Assembly: GCF_034424625.1 (NCBI RefSeq)
Contig: NZ_CP139976.1
Coordinates: 806,001 to 870,000, forward strand
Source of the DNA: Janthinobacterium lividum
Lineage (GTDB): Bacteria; Pseudomonadota; Gammaproteobacteria; Burkholderiales; Burkholderiaceae_D
DNA: 64,000 bases
Direction of reading: 5' to 3'
Under the pieces are notes generated by a model that saw only the letters and a list, made by a program, of their open reading frames with translations, had not been told where the DNA came from and ran no database searches. Shown here one piece after another: positions 62,105 to 64,000 of the stretch. The translations under genes were made by a program, and so were the position numbers. Every line of letters starts with the position of its first letter. Positions within the stretch are counted from its first letter, which is position 1.

Positions 62105-63058
62105 ATGCTGACCATCCTCGCCATCACCTTTCCCTTTTTCGCCCTGGTGCTGTGCGGCTACCTGGCCGTGCGGCGCAAGCTGCTGCCGCTGGCCGCCATC
62201 GGCGGCTTGAACAGTTTTGTCCTGTACTTCGCGTTGCCCTGCATGCTGTACCGCTTCGGCGCCGCCACGCCCATCGCGCAGCTGCTCGACGCCAGCGTGT
62301 TCGGCGTCTACCTGCTGTGCGCGCTGATCATGGTGGGCGTCACCATGGCCATGACCCTGAGCCACCGCATCGACTGGAACAACGCCGCCTTCGGTGCGCT
62401 GGTGGCGGCCTTCCCGAATACGGGCTTCATGGGCGTGCCCCTGCTATTGACCTTGCTCGGCCCCCGTTCGTCTGGTCCCGTCATCGTCACCATCGTCGTC
62501 GACATGTTGATTACCAGCTCGCTGTGCATCGCCCTGTCGCGCATCGGCAGCGGCGGCGCGCACGGCAGCCGCGCCGCCGTCGTCAATGCCATGAAAGGCA
62601 TGGCCGGCAATCCGATGCCGTGGGCGATCGTGCTCGGTGCCTTGTCGTCGTGGCTGGAACTGGCCTTGCCCAAGCCGTTGATGCAGACGGTGGGCCTGCT
62701 GGCCGACGCCGCCTCGCCTGTCGCCTTGTTTACCATCGGCGCCGTGCTGGCCCGTTCGCAAATGAGCACGAGCGACCCCGCGCCCCTGGGAGAATATGTG
62801 CCCGTGGCGCTGAAAAAACTGCTGCTGCATCCGCTGCTGGTGTGGGGCATCGGCCACGCGGCCATCGCGCTGGGCGCGCCGCTCGATCCGTTCGCGCTGA
62901 CCTGCATGGTGCTGGTGGCTTGCCTGCCCAGCGCCAGCAACGTCTCGCTGCTGTCGGAACGCTTCGGCGCGAATACTGCGCGCATCGCCCGCATCATTCT
63001 GGTCTCGACGGCGCTGTCGTTCCTGACGTTTTCGGCGGCCGTCAGCTGGCTGGCGTGA
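62105..63058 (+). CDS. AEC family transporter (auxin efflux carrier type)
   Basis: The 317-residue membrane protein has about ten hydrophobic segments in two halves, with the conserved FALPCMLYRFGAA and AAFPNTGFMGVPLLL segments and the late LACLPSASNVSLL-type segment (VLVACLPSASNVSLLSERFG). AEC transporters move small organic acids or amino acids; the substrate is unknown. The gene ends at 63058, and its last 26 codons are repeated three times downstream. Confidence 0.88.
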   Translation: MLTILAITFPFFALVLCGYLAVRRKLLPLAAIGGLNSFVLYFALPCMLYRFGAATPIAQLLDASVFGVYLLCALIMVGVTMAMTLSHRIDWNNAAFGALVAAFPNTGFMGVPLLLTLLGPRSSGPVIVTIVVDMLITSSLCIALSRIGSGGAHGSRAAVVNAMKGMAGNPMPWAIVLGALSSWLELALPKPLMQTVGLLADAASPVALFTIGAVLARSQMSTSDPAPLGEYVPVALKKLLLHPLLVWGIGHAAIALGAPLDPFALTCMVLVACLPSASNVSLLSERFGANTARIARIILVSTALSFLTFSAAVSWLA

Positions 63059-63483
63059 GGGTGGCCGAGTGGCACCGGGCCTCGCCGCGCGCCTTGCGCA
63101 TCATCGTGAGCACAGCGCAGCGCGCATCGCCCGCATCATTTTAGTGTCGACGGCGCTGTCGTTCCTGACGTTTTCGGCGGCCGTCAGCTGGCTGGCGTGA
63201 GGGTGGCCGAGTGGCACCGGGCCTCGCCGCGCGCCTTGCGCATCATCGTGAGCACTGCGCGGCGCGCATCGCCCGCATCATTCTGGTCTCGACGGCGCTG
63301 TCGTTTTTGACGTTTTCGGCAGCCGTCAGCTGGCTGGCGTGAGGGTGACTCGTTGGCCCGGGCCACGCCGCGCGCCTTGCGCATCATCGTGAGCACTGCG
63401 CGGCGCGCATCGCCCGCATCATTCTGGTCTCGACGGCGCTGTCGTTTCTAACGTTTTCAGCGGCCGTCAGCTGGCTGGCGTGA
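62981..63483 (+). repeat. tandem repeat of the AEC gene's 3' end, four copies, period 141-142 bp
   Basis: Copies of the last 26 codons of the transporter gene (with stop) lie at 62981-63058 (in the gene), 63123-63200, 63265-63342 and 63406-63483. Spacers of 64, 64 and 63 bp separate them and are also similar to each other, the third being the most diverged. Relative to copy 1, copies 2, 3 and 4 have three base changes each, and all nine are synonymous (for example CTG GTC to TTA GTG, TTC CTG to TTT TTG, TCG to TCA). The last copy overlaps the stop end of the convergent PaiB-like gene. Confidence 0.92.
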
Positions 63484-64000
63484 CGTTGGCGGCGATCAGC
63501 GCGCCCAGGGCCTGCGCCGCACCGGGCTGGTTGTCCAGCGCCAGGCCATGCGCCATGCTGGCCTGGTCCTGCATGCTGCGGTTCTGTCCCAGCTTCCATT
63601 TTCCCGTGATGCGCGTGAGGGGGATTTCGATGCCGACGATGGCTTTCAAGAGTTTCCCGATATAGCCGGCCGGCGCATCGGCCACCTGCCATGGCGCGGC
63701 TAGCCCCGCTTCATGGCGCGCCGTCAGCCGCTCCACCAATCCCAGCAGCCACGCCGCATCGTCGATGGCGCGCAAGGGGCCGTGGGCATGCACCACGGCG
63801 TAATTGAAGGTAGGGACTTCCTTGCCGCTGCGCTGCTTTTCCGCATACCAGGCGGGCGTGATGTAGGCGTGCGGCCCCTGGAAAATCACCATGCATTCAT
63901 CGTTCCCGCCGGCCCCGCGCCACAGCGGATTGGTGCGCGCCACGTGGGCGCGCAGGATGCCGAACGGGGCCTCGGGCGTGGGCGCGGCGATCTCGAACGG
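63467..64000 (-). CDS. PaiB-like FMN-binding negative transcriptional regulator, 5' end cut by window
   Basis: The frame runs off the right edge; about 177 residues are visible. PaiB-type features are PFGILRAHVARTNPLWR, MVIFQGPHAYITPAWYAEK, and a later GFEIPLTRI-like segment (GIEIPLTRITGKWKLGQNR). PaiB binds FMN and acts as a regulator in Bacillus; its role here is unknown. Its final codons (ANVTPAS) and stop are formed by the fourth copy of the AEC 3'-end repeat, so the two convergent genes share about 17 bp of repeat sequence. Confidence 0.88.
   Translation of the reverse strand, partial: PFEIAAPTPEAPFGILRAHVARTNPLWRGAGGNDECMVIFQGPHAYITPAWYAEKQRSGKEVPTFNYAVVHAHGPLRAIDDAAWLLGLVERLTARHEAGLAAPWQVADAPAGYIGKLLKAIVGIEIPLTRITGKWKLGQNRSMQDQASMAHGLALDNQPGAAQALGALIAANVTPAS

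Follow-up and report, generated by a model that had tools for sequence, protein, structure and literature searches.

Tandem repeats grow and shrink by unequal homologous recombination. Gene ends may also be displaced: at the 3' end of icd in E. coli, the elements e14 and phage 21 bring along an altered gene end, and Rhs and CDI genes have displaced 'orphan' C-terminal ends. At pilS, silent partial gene copies serve antigenic variation.

Here, an array of gene ends was analyzed in Janthinobacterium lividum, within a stretch of 64,000 nucleotides of contig NZ_CP139976.1 that is referred to as a whole as the window. Like tandem repeats generated by unequal recombination, the array shows head-to-tail units, variable copy number and an apparent hybrid unit, but its unit holds a gene end, and the copies keep the protein sequence though one alone ends the gene. 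It shares with icd and e14 or phage 21 the displaced gene ends and the mostly synonymous differences; unlike them, it has no visible element, only a spacer of about 63 bp. As in Rhs and CDI loci, gene ends are queued behind an intact gene, but those of the array encode the same protein sequence, whereas Rhs and CDI ends are alternative domains. The presence of partial copies near an expressed gene recalls pilS; however, the copies show almost no protein variation and thus no antigenic variation, nor do they encode the different protein segments expected of silent cassettes. A literature search that did not reach full texts found no published account of such a gene-end array. By our analysis, the array is real and unusual; it is a variation on recombination arrays and displaced gene ends that are already known and does not form a new class.

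Results

The end of an AEC transporter gene is present four times in the window, with periods of 142, 142 and 141 bp (Table 1). Each 78-bp copy consists of 25 codons plus the stop, and the translation, RIARIILVSTALSFLTFSAAVSWLA, is the same in all four. The original prediction of a gene end occurring four times with a period of 141–142 bp was thus confirmed, with every copy located, although the repeated unit proved to be 25 and not 26 codons plus the stop. The downstream copies had also been described as devoid of a start codon, which holds for copy 4 but not for copies 2 and 3, where an in-frame GTG lies within an open stretch of 57 codons plus the stop. Such GTG codons and open stretches would suit translation of the copies, either as small membrane peptides or as part of a frameshifted, lengthened transporter. 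However, neither start nor frame is kept across species, and a unit of 142 or 143 bp shifts the frame. Since, in addition, copy 4 lacks the GTG, these codons are no evidence of a gene, and translation of the copies is considered extremely improbable.

The stop codon of a convergent gene encoding an FMN_bind_2 protein lies at positions 63467–63469, within copy 4 and 17 bp ahead of where the stop of this copy ends. The transporter gene and the FMN_bind_2 gene overlap by 17 bp in close relatives with a single copy, in which the same sequence was recognized by eye. In genomes with an array, the transporter gene is completed by copy 1 and the FMN_bind_2 gene by the last copy.

Table 1. Features of the gene-end array and its two flanking genes (positions in the window).
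Feature	Position	Strand	Basis
AEC-type transporter gene (Mem_trans, PF03547)	62105..63058	+	Pfam E 5e-28; open frame
Copy 1, real end of the transporter gene, 25 codons + stop	62981..63058	+	
Spacer 1	63059..63122	+	Spacer alignment; genus search
Copy 2, 3 synonymous differences from the gene (CTG-GTC to TTA-GTG)	63123..63200	+	
Spacer 2, left part like spacer 1, right end like spacer 3	63201..63264	+	
Copy 3, 3 synonymous differences from the gene	63265..63342	+	
Spacer 3, left part different	63343..63405	+	
Copy 4, 3 synonymous differences from the gene; also contains the 3' end of the convergent gene	63406..63483	+	
Convergent FMN_bind_2 (PaiB-like) gene, continuing beyond the window end; stop inside copy 4	63467..64000	-	Pfam E 3e-58 on L002:2863-3516; open frame

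The distribution of the array was surveyed by a DNA search of 40 genomes of the genus, including the window's own. The locus was matched in 38 of them, G021 and G022 giving no match, and 28 transporter ends could be read, of which 23 were single-copy and five carried an array. The remaining matches corresponded to G037, with a weaker transporter match, five losses of the transporter body, and four genomes in which only the FMN_bind_2 gene was matched (G002, G026, G003 and G027); for G002 and G026, the fetched stretches contained no transporter match. Arrays comprised four copies in the window, three in G035 and two each in G004, G011 and G001, with a homologous spacer in all five, so that the copy number at the same site varies from 1 to 2, 3 or 4 among these 28 genomes. 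Inspection of up to 1.5 kb downstream of 80 named AEC genes revealed an array at two loci, those of Janthinobacterium sp. LM6 and 344, which correspond to G004 and G035. A pattern made from the right half of the spacer, with up to two mismatches allowed, was found in 5 of 392 genomes sampled from the family, always at this locus.

Array carriers were scattered on trees of 24 loci (one genome per species; the 28 without their four most distant members), requiring 5, 4 and 5 changes on the trees of the transporter body, the upstream flank and the downstream flank, respectively, which is no fewer than in most label shuffles. One homologous spacer in scattered carriers points to a single origin followed by repeated scarless loss, or to transfer, two routes that these trees do not separate because the label 'array' is unclustered.

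Codon-by-codon comparison of the window copies upheld the claim that the downstream copies differ from the gene by nine bases in total, all of them synonymous. Copies 2, 3 and 4 carry three differences each; for an expected synonymous share of 0.29–0.48, the probability of nine out of nine is 1.5e-5 to 1.3e-3 (transition weights 1 to 1000, GC>AT weights 1 to 4). In the other four array species, the five downstream copies are mostly, but not purely, synonymous with respect to their own gene. Three of them (G011, G001 and G004) show one amino-acid difference each: the copies of G011 and G001 carry an Ala>Thr change, and in G004 the usual Ala is kept by the copy, the gene itself having Thr. A majority of copies with non-synonymous differences in related strains had been named beforehand as grounds for refuting the proposal; although three of five copies do show one, we do not take this as a refutation, because such changes make up only 3 of 24 base differences and in one case the gene itself departs. 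The common 25-residue sequence is encoded by six of the eight downstream copies, the other two differing by one residue each, and the protein sequence of the gene end is strongly conserved among the 80 named loci.

Congeners that have lost the transporter gene showed what becomes of unattached ends. In G005, G013, G036, G029 and G030, the transporter body is lost and part of its end is kept beside the FMN_bind_2 gene. These deletions (L032, L033, L034, L035 and L036) have at least four different junctions, those of G013 and G036 looking alike, and open frames, in part followed by eye, showed the FMN_bind_2 stop inside the transporter end to be spared in all five. Tails left where the transporter is deleted decay. 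Those of G013 and G036, which share at least one change, contain 4 synonymous and 6 non-synonymous differences, against 23 and 2 for the eight downstream copies when compared with the nearest of 24 gene ends (Fisher P 0.0028; related copies and species are treated as independent, making P values too small). Compared with their own gene, the downstream copies have 30 synonymous and 3 non-synonymous differences. The tail of G005, with a frame-breaking length change noted by eye, and those of G029 and G030, of which too little is kept, were left out of this count. Partition of the variants into shared and private ones was uninformative as a test, because a non-synonymous change is almost bound to be private.

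The original prediction that neutral decay would not account for the copies agrees with these data. Neutral decay after a recent duplication, with chance and a GC-to-AT transition bias leaving only synonymous changes, would be in keeping with the fact that the codon variants of the copies absent from the 28 gene ends are, all but one, G-to-A. Nevertheless, the window alone gives P at most 1.3e-3, and orphan tails do decay, making this explanation very improbable. A model in which each copy is a snapshot of its own gene at an earlier time, followed by decay, also failed: it predicts 38–53% non-synonymous changes, far more than the copies contain (P 3e-6 to 8.5e-4).

The spacers are specific to the locus. 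In the genus search, a 69-bp spacer query retrieved eight spacers at this locus with E 7.7e-10 or better; among the matches listed, the best one elsewhere reached 8.4e-5 over 35 bp and the others were short and weak. One weak match recurs across the genus and lies, in the window's genome, inside an open frame that looks unrelated. Distances between the spacers of array species (0.05–0.20, best) are similar to fourfold distances in the transporter body (0.09–0.18), indicating that the spacers are about as old as the species. At that age, the copies should have gathered about 16 non-synonymous changes over five lineages, compared with 2 observed, and the non-coding share of the separating path was estimated at 4–7%, with upper limits of 14–26%; here too, related copies are taken as independent. 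By these comparisons, the array appears to be made of old spacers beside young gene ends.

Several roles and sources for the spacer were considered and rejected. Predicted folds of seven spacers were no stabler than those of shuffled sequences (z -0.63 to 1.08), and the single terminator-like site compares with an average of 0.9 in shuffles, giving no indication of a terminator or RNA structure. Descent from a piece of a transporter paralogue, suggested by a readable RIIVSTA, was not sustained either: the peptide pattern was confined to array loci among the loci examined, no clear match to the locus was obtained (best P 0.05), and comparison of the left part with the 60 bp of the transporter gene that precede its end gave P 0.28–0.92. 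The left part is weakly similar to the end of the FMN_bind_2 gene (P 0.02–0.13 for six spacers, uncorrected), a likeness to be expected from tandem duplication across the overlap.

Window spacer 2 combines the left part of spacer 1 with the right end of spacer 3 and, judging from few sites, looks like a hybrid of the two. Codon haplotypes are likewise shared across genomes. The TTA-GTG haplotype of window copy 2 also occurs in the G011 and G035 gene ends, and CTC-GTC, the haplotype of the G004 gene, is found in copies 2 and 3 of G035. Six of the eight copies are closer to the gene end of another species than to their own and two tie, although the choice among 27 others favours such a result, and with only 78 bp per copy donors cannot be named. 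Shared haplotypes and the hybrid-like spacer 2 would fit exchange between arrays of different strains.

Across the window and the other four array species, copies within one genome are no more alike and lie 3–7 bases from their own gene, so that simple within-genome homogenization is not seen. This bears on the idea that selection keeps the downstream copies as spare ends, frequent swapping soon exposing a bad copy as the end of the gene. The almost exclusively synonymous differences and the contrast with orphan tails argue for it. However, frequent swapping should homogenize copies within a genome, two copies carry Ala-to-Thr changes, and 23 congeners manage without an array; selection for spare ends is therefore regarded as unlikely. 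A fuller version, in which the copies would be a maintained reserve of functional ends, the lineage would repeatedly swap the end of its transporter, and the array ends would protect both overlapping convergent genes, appears a little less likely still.

It had also been proposed that an element integrates at the 3' end of the gene, using it as attachment site, and leaves scars after bringing its own codon-altered end. Two-copy genomes, with an end, about 63 unrelated bp and another end, have the appearance of such scars, and altered codons would suit a carried gene end. Against this, no large insert separates the transporter and FMN_bind_2 genes at the 26 loci with both matched (one genome per species), plasmid and phage collections gave no match to the array region, and viral contigs none to the end and spacer patterns. 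Sequence matching in genus genomes found no carrier either. The proposal thus gained no support from these searches, and integration scars are rather doubtful.

Discussion

We consider it reasonably probable, on the strength of the sequence comparisons, that the array arose by tandem duplication across the gene overlap and that homologous recombination, with functional gene ends of the same or related strains as partners, accounts for the gain, loss and swapping of its ends. A short tandem duplication in the genus would have spanned the 17-bp overlap of the two convergent genes and could have survived because each end of the array completes one gene, copy 1 the transporter and the last copy FMN_bind_2. 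Copies would then be added, removed and exchanged as the repeats underwent homologous recombination with one another and with DNA arriving from related strains, and contraction to a single copy would be scarless. Downstream copies would decay while parked, until replaced, and would differ almost only at synonymous sites because their donors are functional gene ends, probably including those of other strains. The original interpretation is supported in part: of its options, the one in which recombination with related intact genes supplied the copies and duplication followed fits best, given the shared haplotypes and the hybrid-like spacer 2.

If this reading is right, the array is a compact read-out of recombination, with old spacers, young gene ends and, in the orphan tails of congeners, a built-in control for decay. 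It would illustrate how an overlap of convergent genes can be opened by duplicating it, with neither gene broken, and, involving no new machine, would preserve on a small scale a natural trace of recombination between the DNA of related bacteria. Were the ends truly to swap in populations, the array would offer a rare example of spare coding ends retained beside a gene.

The two halves of the spacer differ in conservation. The right half is nearly invariant between species, with 0–3 differences in 31–32 positions when gaps are disregarded; the left half varies, with up to 10 differences in 29. This contrast counts against duplication followed by recombination as set out above, because uniform neutral drift would not give it.

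Within the gene ends themselves, codons 14–15 alternate between TTC-CTG and TTT-TTG as a linked pair, with few exceptions, this adjacent CC/TT change being scattered over the genus.
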